Of a stretch of 64,000 bases of DNA, positions 10,829 through 17,720 are shown piece by piece. The DNA lies in assembly GCA_016789105.1 (NCBI GenBank), contig JAEURN010000008.1:124001-188000 (forward strand), read 5' to 3'. The position numbers and the translations under genes are program-made. The stretch comes from Armatimonadota bacterium. Lineage in GTDB: Bacteria; Armatimonadota; Fimbriimonadia; Fimbriimonadales; Fimbriimonadaceae. The notes beneath the pieces were generated by a model. That model was not told the origin of the DNA, did not search any database, and saw only the letters and a program-made list of their open reading frames with translations. Position 1 is the stretch's first letter; every line of letters starts with the position of its first letter.

Positions 10829-11619
10829 TCTTTATCCCCCGTGGTGGGTTTTTGGTAGTAAAACGGCTTGGCCGTTTTGAACCCAATCTCTTCCGACCGG
10901 GAAATCCGTTCGGTACTCCCCACAAAGAGGATCCCTCCTGGTTTCAATGATCGGAAAAACTTTTCGTAAAGCTCATCCTTTGCCTCTTCGGTGAAATAAA
11001 TCACCACATTCCGGCACATGATGAGGTCAAAACCGGTTTCAAACCGGTCACCCAAAAGGTTGCCCTTTTGGAACGCCAGGTACTTTTTCAGCCTCGCGTC
11101 GGCAACAAAATCGTTCCCTTGTGGGACAAAGTAGCTTTTGTATTCAGCAGGGACACAGCGCACATCGTTTGCGCTGAACCGGCCTTCTTTCGCCTGGTTC
11201 AACGCAGCGGTGTCGATGTCCGACCCCACGATGCGATGTTGACCCGGGAATTTCTTGTCCAATATCGCTGCCAAGGTGTGGGCTTCGGCCCCATAGCTAC
11301 AGCCCGCACTCCAAATCTTTAGCCTCGGGCTCTGCTTCAAGAGCATCGGCAGGAATTCATTCTCCATTTCCCGCCACTTTTCAGGGTTGCGGAACAACTC
11401 GCTCACGTTGATGGCCAGCCGATCCAAAAACCATTCAGTGTTTGCCGGGCTCGCGGACACGAAAGCACCGAAGGCGGCAAGGTCTTTGCACCCTTTCGAT
11501 TCCATCATCGAAAGGATCCGCCGCTGAAGCTGGTTGGCCTTGTAGAGGTCCAGATCCAGGCCGGAGCGCCGTTTGAAGTGGGAGTAGAACTCCTGCCACT
11601 CAGCCGCCTTAGGAAGCAC
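10810..11619 (-). CDS. cheR: Chemotaxis protein methyltransferase CheR
   Basis: CheR methylates glutamates of chemoreceptors using S-adenosylmethionine. The 269-residue protein has the N-terminal helical CheR domain (RRILSMMESKG, then ELFRNPEKW). The SAM-binding domain shows AGCSYGAEAHTLA, GSDIDTAAL, FDLIMCRNVVIYF and GGILFVGSTE. The usual GCATGEEPY motif is GCSYGAEAH here, so the second acidic position is Ala. It overlaps cheB by 11 nt. Confidence 0.93.
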   Translation of the reverse strand: MLPKAAEWQEFYSHFKRRSGLDLDLYKANQLQRRILSMMESKGCKDLAAFGAFVSASPANTEWFLDRLAINVSELFRNPEKWREMENEFLPMLLKQSPRLKIWSAGCSYGAEAHTLAAILDKKFPGQHRIVGSDIDTAALNQAKEGRFSANDVRCVPAEYKSYFVPQGNDFVADARLKKYLAFQKGNLLGDRFETGFDLIMCRNVVIYFTEEAKDELYEKFFRSLKPGGILFVGSTERISRSEEIGFKTAKPFYYQKPTTGDKEWRNAS

Positions 11620-12640
11620 GCGCCACCTTCCCCGTCAATGTAGCGACAATGGCCGCTGCCATTTCCGCCAAATCGAACTCCCGGTCAATGCCGCCCGCTT
11701 CCTTCGCTGCCTTCGGCATTCCGTAGATCACACAGCTTTCCTGGGATTCGCCCAAGACGACGCCCCCCGCCTTCCTGATCTCGACGGCCCCGGCGGCACC
11801 ATCGCGCCCCATGCCGGTGAGCACAACCCCGACAGAGCGGGATCCCAGATATTTGGCCGCCGAATTGAACAAATAGTCGGCTGCCGGCTTGACCCCGTGG
11901 ATCCGGTCTTCGTCAGTCATCCGCAAATGCAGGTGCTGATCTAAAACCAAGTGCTTGCCAGCCGGAGCCAAAACAGCTTGTCCGGGAACCAACGGCAGGC
12001 CGTCGGCCGCTTCGCGGCACGGGACGGTCCCGGTTGAATCCAGCCGCTTGGCCAAAGATTCCGTGAACCCGGCGGGCATGTGCTGCACGATGACGATGGG
12101 GGCCGGGAACCCTTTCGGGAGTCCTTCCCACAAAGTTCGCAGAGTTGAGGGGCCACCCGTGGAACTGGCGATCAAAATGACTTTGTCCGTCCGGCCCATC
12201 GGGCGGGATGCGGCAACGACCGGCTTCCGGCTCACCAAGGCGCGGACATAGCGGGCGGCCCGAATTTTTTCCAGCGTTTCTGCCTTGCATTCGACAAACT
12301 GCAAGCTCGACGAGTTGTTCGGCTTGGCAACAAAATCGAATGCCCCCTTCTCGAGCGCTTCCATTGTGGCGGCAGCACCCTTTTGGGTGACCGATGAAAC
12401 CATGAGCACCTTGGTTCCGCCGGAAACGATCAACGGCAGGGCTTCCAGCCCCGACATCACGGGCATCTCGACATCCAAGGTCACCAGATCTGGCTTGAGG
12501 ACGGAAGCCATTTCGACCCCTTCTTGGCCGTTTTTGGCCACGCCGACGACTTCCATATCCGGTTCTGCGCCGATCCAATCCGTCATCATGCGTCGCACAA
12601 ACGGCGAGTCGTCAACTACCAAGATCCTCTGTTTGGTCAT
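11609..12640 (-). CDS. cheB: Chemotaxis methylesterase/deamidase CheB
   Basis: CheB removes receptor methyl groups, opposing CheR. The 343-residue protein has an N-terminal receiver domain (VVDDSPFVRRMM; acceptor Asp in LVTLDVEMPVMSG; Lys in FDFVAKP). The C-terminal methylesterase has the catalytic triad motifs ASSTGGPSTLR (Ser), IVQHMPAGFTES (His) and LTGMGRDGAAG (Asp). The ATG overlaps the HDOD gene's stop by 4 nt. Confidence 0.96.
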   Translation of the reverse strand: MTKQRILVVDDSPFVRRMMTDWIGAEPDMEVVGVAKNGQEGVEMASVLKPDLVTLDVEMPVMSGLEALPLIVSGGTKVLMVSSVTQKGAAATMEALEKGAFDFVAKPNNSSSLQFVECKAETLEKIRAARYVRALVSRKPVVAASRPMGRTDKVILIASSTGGPSTLRTLWEGLPKGFPAPIVIVQHMPAGFTESLAKRLDSTGTVPCREAADGLPLVPGQAVLAPAGKHLVLDQHLHLRMTDEDRIHGVKPAADYLFNSAAKYLGSRSVGVVLTGMGRDGAAGAVEIRKAGGVVLGESQESCVIYGMPKAAKEAGGIDREFDLAEMAAAIVATLTGKVARAS

Positions 12641-13500
12641 GCGGCAATTTCCTTGAAGAGAGATTCGTACTCTTCGAATTTTTCGATGAATTCGTCGGTT
12701 AACTTGTCCAACGATTCGGCGATGAGCCCCAAGCGGGCCAAACTCGATTCATCGAACCGGTAGGAAAGCCCGTCCCCGCCCAGACCGAACCCCATTGCCG
12801 AGCAGATGTAATCGCCAACGTGGGCGCAATCGACCACATTCTGGTGTTCCCTTGCTTGGCTGGGCGCGTGGTGGTGCAAGGCAGCTTCGCAAATCTCCTC
12901 GGGCAAATTCCAATTTGTCGCCAAATGGAAACCGACTTGACAGTGGTCGTATCCCAAAACTCGCCGTTCTGCCTCGTCAAACGCAATCCCCTCTCTTCCG
13001 GCGTAAAGAAGGATCGCCCCCAATTTCTCTTCGATCCAGACGCTCAACGCCACTTTTCCAAGGTCGTGGAGCAGGCCGGCTGTGAACGCGACGTCTTCGG
13101 GCGCCTTCCGGCTGGCGGTGGCGATCAATTGGCTGGCGACGGCGGTGCCAAAGGCGTGCCGCCACATTTCGGCCGGGCCCAGGCAATAGCCCGTCACAGG
13201 GCGTTGCATCCAAGGATAGGTTCCGGCCACCAGGGCTAGGTTTTTGACCGTTTTCATGCCGAGCACGACGACGGCCTCCGGCAAATCGACGATGCGGCGA
13301 CTCAATCCATAAAAGGCACTGTTGGCCAGGCGCAAGACCCGGGCGCTAAGGGCTTGGTCGGTGACGATGATCTTGGCAACCGTCGCCGCGCTGGCGCTCG
13401 ACGACTGGGCTTCCCGCATCACCTTGATGGCGGCAGCGGGAATCGTGGGCAAGTCCGTCGTTTTTGCAACAATTTGTTCGATAGTGACGGTGTGGCTCAT
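12637..13500 (-). CDS. HDOD domain signalling protein
   Basis: The 287-residue single-domain HDOD protein starts at the ATG at 13500, overlapping the cheD stop by 4 nt. The pattern TTDLPTIPAAAIKVM and VTDQALSARVLRLANSAFYG matches the HDOD start. AGLLHDLGKVAL retains the HD dipeptide, while other catalytic HD residues appear incomplete, as usual for HDOD. Such domains are usually signalling scaffolds. Its place between cheD and cheB, with overlaps on both sides, ties it to chemotaxis. Its partner is unknown. Confidence 0.9.
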   Translation of the reverse strand: MSHTVTIEQIVAKTTDLPTIPAAAIKVMREAQSSSASAATVAKIIVTDQALSARVLRLANSAFYGLSRRIVDLPEAVVVLGMKTVKNLALVAGTYPWMQRPVTGYCLGPAEMWRHAFGTAVASQLIATASRKAPEDVAFTAGLLHDLGKVALSVWIEEKLGAILLYAGREGIAFDEAERRVLGYDHCQVGFHLATNWNLPEEICEAALHHHAPSQAREHQNVVDCAHVGDYICSAMGFGLGGDGLSYRFDESSLARLGLIAESLDKLTDEFIEKFEEYESLFKEIAA

Positions 13501-14027
13501 GCCGCTGCCCCCTTCTTGTTCCGCCGCAGGCAGCAAAGGCTCTTTTCGCCGCCGTTCACGGTTCGCACGTTGACCAGGCCGTCTTCCGAAAGCACCGTCA
13601 CGGTCCGTCCGCTCGACCCGCCGACATCGGAGGCCAAGGGCCGCAGCCCGAGCGACTTGAGGATCACTGCCACCGCCTCGGCGTTGCGGAGTCCAACATC
13701 CATGCGGGAGTTGGAATCTGACCCGAATTTGAAAACCTGGGCCCCGCCGGCATAAGAGATGACAAGCCGGTTGCGTTGGGCGCCAAGGCTTTCCAGTTGT
13801 CGCAGCAATTCCGGGATGCCCGTGTCGGCAAACTTCCCCGGCTTGTCCACAGGTTTGTCTTTGAACGCCTCTGGGAGCATGATGTGGATCATCCCGCACA
13901 CGTCTGCCTGCTCATCTAATGCCACCAGGCCGATGCAGGAACCTAAGCCCAAGCAGGTGAATTTGGCCGGGCCAGAGGCCACTTTGATCTCGGCCATGCC
14001 CACCAAATGCTGGCTACCGACCGCCAT
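13497..14027 (-). CDS. cheD: Chemoreceptor glutamine deamidase CheD
   Basis: CheD deamidates glutamines in chemoreceptors and in some bacteria is inhibited by CheC. The 176-residue protein has the catalytic Cys in CLGLGSCIG (about Cys31) and His in GMIHIMLPE (about His48), with SYAGGAQVF and GGSSGRTV further on. An in-frame second ATG 10 codons in (MAEIKVASG) could be the true start. It lies 2 nt after cheC, consistent with the CheC-CheD partnership known from Bacillus and Thermotoga. Confidence 0.94.
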   Translation of the reverse strand: MAVGSQHLVGMAEIKVASGPAKFTCLGLGSCIGLVALDEQADVCGMIHIMLPEAFKDKPVDKPGKFADTGIPELLRQLESLGAQRNRLVISYAGGAQVFKFGSDSNSRMDVGLRNAEAVAVILKSLGLRPLASDVGGSSGRTVTVLSEDGLVNVRTVNGGEKSLCCLRRNKKGAAA

Positions 14028-14029
14028 CC

Positions 14030-14659
14030 TCAGGCCGCCTCCGGGATCCCGAGCGCACCGAACAGCCGGTTGAGACCGCTCACCGTGGGAACACAGAGGA
14101 AATAGCCGGTCGTTTGGGAATCGTCCATCCCGAACAGCCGGGTTTCCAGGGCTAGGGCGACGGCTTCTTCCAATTCCGCCTCGGCAACGATCGTCGCGGC
14201 GATCGTGTAGGCGATGTCGACGGAGACCATCGGTGGGGTCGCATGGAGCTTTTGGCCAGACATATCGGAAATCGCATTCAAAAAGCTAGAAGAAACGATG
14301 TTGCCGATCTCCAACATCGCGCTGGCCGCCAACTCGTCGATTTCGGCGGGGGATTCCGGGGCAGTGCCGATCAACATGCGCCACAGGTCTTGAGCGCTTG
14401 CCCACGGGAAGAGGAATGCGGTGTGGCCTTCGATATCGCCTTCGAACGGCATGCAGATGCCAACCGTGACCTCTTCGGGGTCGCCGATCATCATCGGAAC
14501 CTGTTCCAGCGAAACCGTCTCGACTTTCGGAATCTCCATATTGAAGGCTTTGCCGGTCACGGTGGCCAAGGCCGTTGTGGCGTGCCCAAGCCCGATGTTC
14601 GCCATCTCCCGGACGGCCGACATCTCCATCAATCCTAATTCGCGCGGTTCACTCGACAT
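14030..14659 (-). CDS. cheC: CheY-P phosphatase CheC
   Basis: The 209-residue protein contains both CheC active-site repeats: EMANIGLGHATTAL near residue 18 and MLEIGNIVSSSFLNAIS near residue 118, each with the ExxN pair used to dephosphorylate CheY-P. It is the first gene of the operon cheC-cheD-HDOD-cheB-cheR-cheY-cheX. No cheA, cheW or receptor gene is in the window, so the sensory core must be elsewhere. I could not identify a convincing promoter between here and 14786. Confidence 0.93.
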   Translation of the reverse strand: MSSEPRELGLMEMSAVREMANIGLGHATTALATVTGKAFNMEIPKVETVSLEQVPMMIGDPEEVTVGICMPFEGDIEGHTAFLFPWASAQDLWRMLIGTAPESPAEIDELAASAMLEIGNIVSSSFLNAISDMSGQKLHATPPMVSVDIAYTIAATIVAEAELEEAVALALETRLFGMDDSQTTGYFLCVPTVSGLNRLFGALGIPEAA

Positions 14660-14988: not shown

Positions 14989-15390
14989 ATGAAACCTCTC
15001 GATTCCGAATCGATCCGCCGGGCCCTGGTCACTGCACGGGAGGGAGGGTTCCGCTCGGTCAAACTCAAATCAGGGGACGAATCGTTCCAAGCCGTGTTCA
15101 GTGCGGAAGCCCTGAGTTGGGGTGAATCGTTTGCCGAACAAGAAGGCGAACCAGATCCAGGGCCCCGATCCGGCCAAGTGGAAGCCCCGGTCGTCGGGAT
15201 CGTCCGGTGGGCGCAAGGCACGGAGGTCGGGGCGGAGATCGCGGTCGGGCAGGCCGTTGGGGAAGTTCTGGCGTTAGGGATTGCGAACGAGATCGTCAGT
15301 GCCCATGCTGGAAAAGTCAAAGCCGTTTTGACCGAAGACGGAGCCGCCGTAGAATATGGCCAAGCTTTGTTGGAAGTGCAACTCTCATGA
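14989..15390 (+). CDS. AccB-like biotinyl-domain protein lacking the biotin-accepting lysine
   Basis: The 133-residue protein has the layout of the acetyl-CoA carboxylase carrier subunit: an N-terminal AccB helix (IRRALVTAREGGF), an acidic/proline linker, then a biotinyl/lipoyl hammerhead domain (VEAPVVGIVRW, GQAVGEVLALGIANEI, HAGKVKAVLTEDGAAVEYGQ). Where BCCP has E-A-M-K-M, this reads L-A-L-G-I, with Gly97 at the lysine position, so it cannot be biotinylated there. The codons at 15274-15294 confirm the reading. It may be a regulatory, plant BADC-like subunit of the adjacent accC product, or a decayed copy. The true carrier should be encoded elsewhere. Confidence 0.8.
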   Translation: MKPLDSESIRRALVTAREGGFRSVKLKSGDESFQAVFSAEALSWGESFAEQEGEPDPGPRSGQVEAPVVGIVRWAQGTEVGAEIAVGQAVGEVLALGIANEIVSAHAGKVKAVLTEDGAAVEYGQALLEVQLS

Positions 15391-15761
15391 AATCTCGCGG
15401 CAACAGTTTGGTCGGGCTCCTCGCGGCGGTCGCCATCGTGATCCTCGCCATCCTCTTTTTCACCACCGGCGGCAAGTTCCTTGGCGGGAAAGCGGAGGAG
15501 CGGGCCGACGGAAAGGGCGAGACCCTGATCGGCAAGTCGATTTATGCCGGCAAAGACGACGTCTGCATCAGCAACCTCAAACAACTCCGGATGGGGATTG
15601 AAATCGCGACCGACCAAGTTGAAGGGACGCACCCCCAATCCATTGAAGAAACTAAACTCGGCGCACAATTCTATTCCTGCCCCGTAGGCGGAGAACCGTA
15701 CCGATACGATCCCGCAACCGGGCAGGTCCGCTGCCCCCATAAAGGACACGAAAAATACTGA
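15387..15761 (+). CDS. Pseudopilin-like small secreted/anchored protein
   Basis: The 124-residue protein starts with an ATG overlapping the accB stop by 4 nt and ends overlapping accC by 1 nt. A short basic N-terminus precedes one hydrophobic helix (SLVGLLAAVAIVILAILFF), as in type IV pilin-like proteins, but the glutamate at +5 of mature pilins is absent. The C-terminus has CPVGGEPYRYDPATGQVRCP, a paired-cysteine ending that resembles pseudopilin C-termini. Its place between accB and accC has no obvious metabolic reason. Function unknown. Confidence 0.72.
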   Translation: MKSRGNSLVGLLAAVAIVILAILFFTTGGKFLGGKAEERADGKGETLIGKSIYAGKDDVCISNLKQLRMGIEIATDQVEGTHPQSIEETKLGAQFYSCPVGGEPYRYDPATGQVRCPHKGHEKY

Positions 15762-17122
15762 TGTTCCAAAGAGTGCTCATCGCAAACCGCGGCGAAATCG
15801 CCTGCCGTGTGATCCGCGCGTGCCACGAACTCGGCATCGAGGCCATTGCCGTGCATAGCCAAGCCGACCGGGATTCGCGACACGTCCACATGGCCGACCG
15901 GTCGATTTGCATCGGCGCCGGAACCAACGCCGACAGCTATCTGAACCTCGCCAACGTCCTTTCGGCTTGCGAAATCACCGGGGCCGACGCCGTCCACCCC
16001 GGTTTCGGCTACTTTAGCGAACGACCCCGATTTGCCGAAGCGCTCGGCTCCATGGGAATCAAATTCATTGGGCCCAGCGTCGCCGCCATCGAGGCCATGG
16101 GGGACAAAGCCAAGGCTAAGGAAGCCGCCATCGAATCCGATTGCCCGGTCGTCCCCGGATCCACCGGCGCCGTCCCCACCGAACAAGACGCCCTGGATTG
16201 GGCCGAAAAAATTGGCTACCCGGTTTTGCTCAAAGCGGTCGCCGGCGGAGGCGGTCGGGGAATCCGGCGCGTCGACAACCGCGAAGAACTCCCCCCCGCT
16301 TTCAGGACCGCCCAGGCCGAAGCCCAAGCCAGTTTTGGCAGCGGCGAGATGCTGGTTGAAAAGTGCGTCGTCAAACCCCGCCACGTGGAAATCCAAATCC
16401 TTGGCGACGAGCACGGAAACGTCCTCCACATTGGCGAACGGGAGTGCTCGGTTCAAAATCTGCGCCATCAAAAAATCGTCGAGGAAGCCCCGTGCGTGGT
16501 TCTTACGCCAGAACTCCGGGGAAAGATGGGGGATGCGGCCGTCCGCGTGGCCAAACAAGTCGGATATTCCAACGCCGGTACGGTTGAGTTCTTGCTTGAT
16601 GCCAACGGGGATTTCTACTTCCTTGAAATGAACACGCGAATCCAGGTCGAACACCCGGTCACGGAAATGGTCAGCGGGCTCGACCTCGTCCAATGGCAAA
16701 TCCGGATCGCCAGCGGGGAACCACTGCCCTTTTCCCAAAGCGATATCCAACTCACCGGGCATTCCATCGAAGCCCGCATCACCGCGCAAGACCCAGACAA
16801 AGATTTTGCCCCTTCCACCGGCACGCTGACCCGGTGGGATCCGCCCGGATTCCGTGGTATCCGCTTGGACACCCACGTCTATGCCGGGTTCACGGTCTCG
16901 CCCTATTACGACCCGATGATCGCCAAGCTCATCGTCACCGCCGAATCCCGCGAGCTCGCCGTGCGCCGGCTCCAGGTTGCCCTCGATGAATTCAATGTCG
17001 AAGGGATCCAGACCAATATCCCGTTCTTGCGCCGGCTGGTTCGGCACCCGGATTACGTTTCCGGAAGGGTGAGCACCGCCTTTGTCGGCGAATTCTTGCA
17101 AGAGACGGCCACACATGCCTGA
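15761..17122 (+). CDS. accC: Acetyl-CoA carboxylase biotin carboxylase subunit
   Basis: AccC carboxylates protein-bound biotin using ATP and bicarbonate. The 453-residue protein has the N-terminal ANRGEIACRVIRACHELGI, the ATP-grasp glycine loop AVAGGGGRGIRRV, RHQKIVEEAP with the catalytic Lys region, and EMNTRIQVEHPVTEM with the active-site Arg. Two deviations stand out: ERECSVQNLRHQK has one extra residue relative to the usual QRRHQK, and HPGFGYFSERPRFA replaces HPGYGFLSEN. The adjacent AccB-like protein cannot carry biotin, so this subunit must work with a carrier encoded elsewhere. Confidence 0.95.
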   Translation: MFQRVLIANRGEIACRVIRACHELGIEAIAVHSQADRDSRHVHMADRSICIGAGTNADSYLNLANVLSACEITGADAVHPGFGYFSERPRFAEALGSMGIKFIGPSVAAIEAMGDKAKAKEAAIESDCPVVPGSTGAVPTEQDALDWAEKIGYPVLLKAVAGGGGRGIRRVDNREELPPAFRTAQAEAQASFGSGEMLVEKCVVKPRHVEIQILGDEHGNVLHIGERECSVQNLRHQKIVEEAPCVVLTPELRGKMGDAAVRVAKQVGYSNAGTVEFLLDANGDFYFLEMNTRIQVEHPVTEMVSGLDLVQWQIRIASGEPLPFSQSDIQLTGHSIEARITAQDPDKDFAPSTGTLTRWDPPGFRGIRLDTHVYAGFTVSPYYDPMIAKLIVTAESRELAVRRLQVALDEFNVEGIQTNIPFLRRLVRHPDYVSGRVSTAFVGEFLQETATHA

Positions 17123-17720
17123 CGATGCGGCCGCCAACCAAAGCCATTCCCGGCGGTTGGCCAGGGAGCTGGCGTTTCAAGCCCTTTATATGCGGCATAT
17201 CGGTTCGGTAGACCGCAAGACCGCCATCGAAACTGCCCTTGTCCGGCAGCCCATGGCCGAGGACGCGGCCGTTTTTGTCGACATGGTCGTTTCTGGTGTC
17301 GATTCGGAAACCACTTTTTTGGATAACCAGATCGAGCCGTTTTTGGCCAAAGGTTGGACTCTTTCTCGGATTGCCGTTTCCGACCTGATCGTTTTGAGGC
17401 TTGCCGCCTATGAAATGTTCTTCCAGCCGGACATTCCGCCAAAGGTAACCATTTCACAAGCCGTCGATTTGGCCAAGCGTTTTGGAACGGCCGAAAGCGG
17501 CAGTTTTGTCAACGGTGTGCTCGGCAATTTGTTGGAGGCTTCGCCCAAGGCAGATTGGATCCCCCCGGTGCTGGATGGGGGGGACGGACTGGAAGCCAAC
17601 AACACAGTTGAACTCCCAATGGGCCAGCCCGAAGCCGAAGAGCCGGACGAGCCGCCCTCCGATGACGCGACCGTGGGGAGTTGGGTCATCAAGCGCGACG
17701 ACCCGCCAGCCGGCAAATGA
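17115..17720 (+). CDS. nusB: Transcription antitermination factor NusB
   Basis: NusB with S10 binds boxA RNA in rRNA antitermination. The 201-residue protein starts at the ATG at 17115, overlapping accC by 8 nt. ARELAFQALYMRHIG and KGWTLSRIAVSDLIVLRLAAYEM match the helical fold. ISQAVDLAKRFGTAESGSFVNGVLG is the family signature. About 50 C-terminal residues after the core are acidic and proline-rich (EAEEPDEPPSDD), longer than usual. The stop overlaps the rarA start by 4 nt. Confidence 0.95.
   Translation: MPDDAAANQSHSRRLARELAFQALYMRHIGSVDRKTAIETALVRQPMAEDAAVFVDMVVSGVDSETTFLDNQIEPFLAKGWTLSRIAVSDLIVLRLAAYEMFFQPDIPPKVTISQAVDLAKRFGTAESGSFVNGVLGNLLEASPKADWIPPVLDGGDGLEANNTVELPMGQPEAEEPDEPPSDDATVGSWVIKRDDPPAGK

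Follow-up and report, generated by a model that had tools for sequence, protein, structure and literature searches.

What does an AccB protein do once the lysine that carries biotin is gone? The question is raised by accB1, a gene found in a 64-kb stretch of contig JAEURN010000008.1 (assembly GCA_016789105.1), hereafter the window. The source genome, 2.75 Mb in size and 99.96% complete, belongs to the Fimbriimonadaceae, a family of soil and water bacteria in the phylum Armatimonadota. Features of the locus are collected in Table 1.

Table 1. Features of the accB1 locus, in positions of the window
Feature	Position	Strand	Basis
accB1, lysine-less AccB/BCCP paralogue, 133 aa, ATG start	14989..15390	+	Pfam, family alignment, AlphaFold2, Foldseek
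Predicted N-terminal module, helix (residues 6-18) plus beta-hairpin (23-36), putative counterpart of the E. coli AccB N-terminus	15004..15096	+	predicted secondary structure, profile alignment, conservation
Biotinyl-type beta-barrel domain, thumb shortened	15169..15384	+	Pfam, AlphaFold2, Foldseek, spacing count
LALGI where the EAMKM biotinylation motif is expected	15268..15282	+	translation, alignment
Gly97 codon of accB1	15277-15279	+	translation, alignment
Pilin-like membrane protein gene, conserved, 124 aa, overlaps accB1 and accC	15387..15761	+	synteny, start and stop overlaps
accC, biotin carboxylase of 453 aa, all checked catalytic residues present	15761..17122	+	family search, alignment
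nusB-like gene, start approximate	17115..17720	+	synteny; named by homology, not by family search

AccB1 keeps the BCCP fold and lacks the biotin lysine

An earlier note on this DNA had described a biotinyl domain in which LALGI replaces EAMKM, and it was right. AccB1 scores above the cut-off of Pfam Biotin_lipoyl (29.2 bits, cut-off 22.1, E 8e-7), and in an alignment to true BCCPs its motif, L94-A-L-G97-I98, places G97 exactly on the biotin lysine. The lysine of E-x-M-K-M/L by which an AccB is recognized is therefore absent, with Gly97 in its place. Against the AccB model TIGR00531 the protein reaches 38.6 bits, under the curated cut-off of 115.2; this cut-off does not discriminate here, because the true AccB of the same genome (AccB2, described below) also falls short at 86.7 bits.

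The structure predicted by AlphaFold2 from 71 relatives (mean pLDDT 82) consists of a helix (residues 6-18), a hairpin with strands 23-28 and 31-36, a low-confidence linker and then the biotinyl-type domain, in which Gly97 occupies the turn between strands 89-95 and 98-103. The best Foldseek matches of the model are all BCCPs (5gua, 1bdo, 4hr7 and Arabidopsis BCCP1, 9a87). At the N-terminus, the AccB1 profile aligns weakly (8.8 bits) with residues 20-60 of 4hr7_B, the corresponding part of E. coli AccB. In the order of its domains (a predicted N-terminal helix-hairpin, a flexible linker and the biotinyl beta-barrel) and in its place in the operon before accC, AccB1 resembles E. coli AccB (4hr7, 1bdo), and it differs in the missing biotin lysine, the shortened thumb and a relaxed carrier core.

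The gene order accB1, pilin-like gene, accC, nusB is kept across the Fimbriimonadaceae. The stop of accB1 overlaps the start of the next gene as ATGA, and the stop of the pilin-like gene overlaps the accC start as TGATG, so that the intact and tightly coupled frame noted earlier is borne out. The statement that accB1 lies beside accC holds for the operon and fails for direct adjacency, since the pilin-like ORF intervenes, in the window as well as phylum-wide. Biotin carboxylase is the first enzyme of fatty-acid synthesis, and the AccC encoded here shares 48% identity with its E. coli counterpart and has all the catalytic residues that were checked. Synteny of accB1, the middle gene and accC holds at the 77 family loci examined (accC is visible in 74 of the slices) and reaches other families of the phylum. 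Among sampled genomes, AccB1 is phylum-wide and lies mostly within the accB1-mid-accC-nusB cluster; in one family (f3) it does not adjoin accC. The f3 loci L140-L144 retain a lysine-less AccB1 (VLGIPNE) away from accC.

The glycine is fixed in the Fimbriimonadaceae

A homologue of accB1 is present in 81 of 85 genomes of the family. One of these matches (G075) is short and weak and was left out, and the remaining 80 loci all carry Gly at the lysine column. This is the conservation of Gly97 for which the earlier note had suggested looking, and a normal lysine in relatives, named there as the sign of a strain mutation, was found in none of the family loci examined. A strain mutation or sequencing error is accordingly ruled out. 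In an alignment of 71 sequences only three residues of AccB1 are invariant: A16, G70 and G97.

Values of dN/dS were taken from close pairs, the comparison with the nearest genus-mate being saturated, and lie at about 0.03-0.3, indicating purifying selection. Together with the overlapping, coupled frames this rules out a pseudogene, in agreement with the earlier argument against decay.

A second gene encodes the biotin carrier

The same genome encodes a true AccB of 149 aa (AccB2; GLIEAMKVFNEI) with the motif EAMKVFNE, whose gene adjoins a homoserine dehydrogenase gene. The second true BCCP that had been predicted elsewhere in the genome therefore exists, and the contrary case, a genome without any other BCCP, is ruled out. 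A third BCCP, of the AMKM type, has surroundings that look like a catabolic cluster. The carboxyltransferases of the genome include separate AccA/AccD-type halves; a second biotin carboxylase, an acyl-CoA-type carboxyltransferase and a biotin ligase family protein are also encoded.

We surveyed the phylum by a profile search of 255 genomes, after which sampled sequences were read. An AccB2-type match (E <= 1e-6) was obtained in 246 of the 255, and nearly every sampled genome holds both AccB1 and AccB2. The lysine is kept in all 65 AccB2 examined, with no loss among those sampled. In several distant families, too, accB2 adjoins a hom-like gene, named by eye (loci L001 / L173, L203, L205, L207, L215 and L231).

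AccB2 was not found in three family genomes that have AccB1 (G035, G044 and G059), likely as a result of assembly gaps; G035 and G059 did yield a different BCCP of the AMK type. Two 1.5-Mb genomes of the Fimbriimonadaceae (G060 and G061) lack both AccB1 and an ACC-type AccC, the biotin carboxylase that remains being 47-49% identical, and the profile search of phylum genomes gave no clear AccB2 in either. This suggests that these reduced genomes have lost an acetyl-CoA carboxylase of their own.

The lysine state changed repeatedly across the phylum

The lysine column of 54 sampled AccB1 from outside the family holds Gly in 23, Lys in 20, Arg in 5, Thr in 4 and His in 2, and three more genomes (family f25) also have Gly. 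In a quick tree, AccB1 and AccB2 form two sides with E. coli AccB between them (SH-aLRT 90). In a more careful tree of AccB1, from which the motif columns were excluded, the lysine state changes at least six times, and sequences of differing state are paired with good support, for instance L166 (Arg) and L169 (Lys). Grouping all lysine-less AccB1 costs 97.5 log units (AU p 4.5e-6), which rejects a single origin of the loss. Support that does not depend on the gene tree comes from single GTDB families (f35, f21, f13 and f6) in which both lysine states occur. The count of changes cannot by itself separate gain from loss, and we read the changes as losses from a lysine-bearing ancestor because working BCCPs have the lysine.

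A locus search with a subset of 14 sequences returned 16 loci, all from Armatimonadota according to their titles (one is titled just 'bacterium'); since its pattern was drawn from Fimbriimonadaceae, these Armatimonadota-only matches do not show absence from other phyla.

The carrier core of AccB1 is under relaxed constraint

In 30 matched genomes, the mean pairwise identity of AccB2 is 0.48 in the N-module and 0.68 in the core, against 0.44 and 0.43 in AccB1. The N-module is thus held about equally in both proteins, relaxation in AccB1 being confined to its carrier core. Counted from a conserved Gly, the Lys column lies at a spacing of 34 in every one of the 65 AccB2 and of 27-29 in AccB1 of the family, from which we conclude that about five thumb residues were lost. 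Most lysine-keeping AccB1 also have a spacing of 29, so the thumb was probably lost before the lysine.

Comparison with known carboxylase subunits

Plant BADCs have no biotinylation motif; they bind both BC and BCCP and serve as glue, as summarized for Arabidopsis in a 2025 paper that calls them unique to the plant enzyme, although inhibition has been proposed as well (PMC11926652). In the earlier description BADCs assemble into acetyl-CoA carboxylase and inhibit it; the inhibitory part is contested even in plants, where the same paper favours the glue role. AccB1 resembles Arabidopsis BADC1-3 in being a BCCP paralogue without the motif, in coexisting with a true BCCP and in keeping a biotinyl-type domain. 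It differs in being encoded in the accC operon, the BADCs being plastid proteins, and in lacking about five thumb residues; moreover, its lysine was lost within one bacterial phylum and more than once. Of the two, the plant proteins alone have been shown to bind BC and BCCP. The origin of AccB1 is probably separate from that of the plant proteins, because lysine-keeping AccB1 of other Armatimonadota sit in the same clan.

In Chloroflexus aurantiacus, the N-terminal beta-hairpin of BCCP, and not its biotinyl core, interlocks four-fold as a barrel that joins two BC dimers into a tetramer, and removal of the hairpin lowers BC activity (PMC11077971). A hairpin of this kind is predicted in AccB1 too; in the fused BC-BCCP protein of Chloroflexus (BC1) hairpin and biotinylated core lie in one chain, whereas AccB1 would have the hairpin without the biotin site. 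Actinobacterial acyl-CoA carboxylases have epsilon-type subunits, small proteins that are unrelated to BCCP and not its paralogues. They would resemble AccB1 as non-catalytic bacterial 'glue' (mentioned in PMC11926652). A search of open-access papers turned up no bacterial protein of the BADC kind; AccB1 probably works like a BADC.

A candidate assembly subunit of acetyl-CoA carboxylase

On the evidence of its sequence, we propose that AccB1 would be a non-biotinylated assembly or regulatory subunit of acetyl-CoA carboxylase, BADC-like in function and evolved independently and repeatedly, a reading to which we give a probability of roughly 0.6. Its N-terminal helix and beta-hairpin would bind AccC and help to tie AccC dimers into a larger BC-BCCP assembly. 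The biotinyl-like domain, carrying no carboxybiotin, would fill the place of a BCCP or contact AccB2, which is encoded elsewhere beside hom and would shuttle biotin between AccC and AccA/AccD. We infer that AccB1 would bind both AccC and AccB2 and would affect assembly rather than inhibit the enzyme.

Such a non-catalytic subunit appears most likely because of the Chloroflexus hairpin, the plant BADCs, the linkage in one operon and the two 1.5-Mb genomes that lack AccB1 together with ACC-type AccC. A regulatory or structural role with AccC, as suggested in the earlier note, would find indirect support in the operon linkage, in retention of the N-module and in the joint absence with accC. Several points count against the proposed role: the N-module match of 8.8 bits, the f3 proteins encoded away from accC and the three genomes in which AccB2 was not found. 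The hairpin role may not be general, because in E. coli it is the BCCP cores, and not the hairpin, that hold BCCP and BC together (PMC11077971). In addition, since the lysine persists in some AccB1 of other families, the ancestral role of AccB1 may have been that of a second carrier, of which the lysine-less form could be a tolerated spare.

Alternatively, AccB1 could be an inhibitory decoy that displaces AccB2 on AccC, lowers acetyl-CoA carboxylase activity and so tunes fatty-acid synthesis, as first proposed for the BADCs. Retention of the AccC-side module with no biotin at the normal site would suit a decoy, one operon with accC would fix the ratio of AccB1 to AccC, and the inhibition model has its precedent in plants (summarized in PMC11926652). 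A constitutive inhibitor made from the enzyme's own operon would nevertheless be an odd brake, and the same paper argues that the plant structural data do not fit inhibition; we regard a decoy as rather unlikely.

AccB1 might also serve a complex other than acetyl-CoA carboxylase, either a different carboxylase or a membrane partner tied to the pilin-like gene. The conserved embedding of that gene between accB1 and accC speaks for such a complex, as does the presence of the second biotin carboxylase and acyl-CoA-type carboxyltransferase. AccB1 is linked to the ACC-type accC, however, and is missing from the two genomes whose sole remaining BC is the other one, which makes this reading very unlikely. 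A still fainter prospect is that AccB1 is kept to control expression of its own operon, of which accB1 is the first gene, by extension of the autoregulation of accBC transcription proposed for E. coli AccB (PMC11602165): a Pfam search found no known DNA-binding domain in AccB1, the f3 genomes conserve it away from accC, and its biotinyl-like fold would be conserved without obvious need. Finally, it is scarcely credible that AccB1 takes biotin at a different lysine or is a relic in decay, because its lysines (K112 and K114, for example) lie outside the hairpin turn where biotin attaches, a relative is no longer biotinylated once its motif lysine is mutated (PMC11077971), and purifying selection and the fixed Gly speak against a relic.

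We lean slightly toward a history in which an ancient duplication of AccB in the Armatimonadota split the jobs, leaving AccB2 as biotin carrier and AccB1 as structural protein, after which AccB1 lost its lysine independently several times (to Gly, Arg, Thr and His). The enzyme would then be a complex of BC, BCCP and pseudo-BCCP with a carboxyltransferase, convergent with the plant plastid enzyme.

BADCs have been treated as a plant invention, and opinion is divided on whether they act as glue or as brake. A bacterial counterpart of separate and repeated origin would offer natural replicates, with lysine-keeping and lysine-less AccB1 of related genomes to be compared in one simple enzyme. Should AccB1 prove to be an assembly subunit, it would open to direct test a structural role of BCCP that the carrier role normally hides. 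For annotation, the accB found near accC in Fimbriimonadaceae genomes should not be taken for the biotin carrier.

Other genes at the locus

The pilin-like gene lies between accB1 and accC at 126 loci, in most of the sampled genomes of the phylum. Its product has a prepilin-like N-terminus, with PF07963 (N_methyl) detected in an f2 homologue but not in the copy from the window. Toward the C-terminus the pattern CP.G.EPY.YDP.TG.V.CPHPGHE.Y is conserved. Divergently upstream of accB1 (11609-14659, minus strand) lies a set of chemotaxis-type genes that we named by eye: a response regulator/methylesterase, an HDOD-domain protein, a CheD-like protein and a CheC-like protein.
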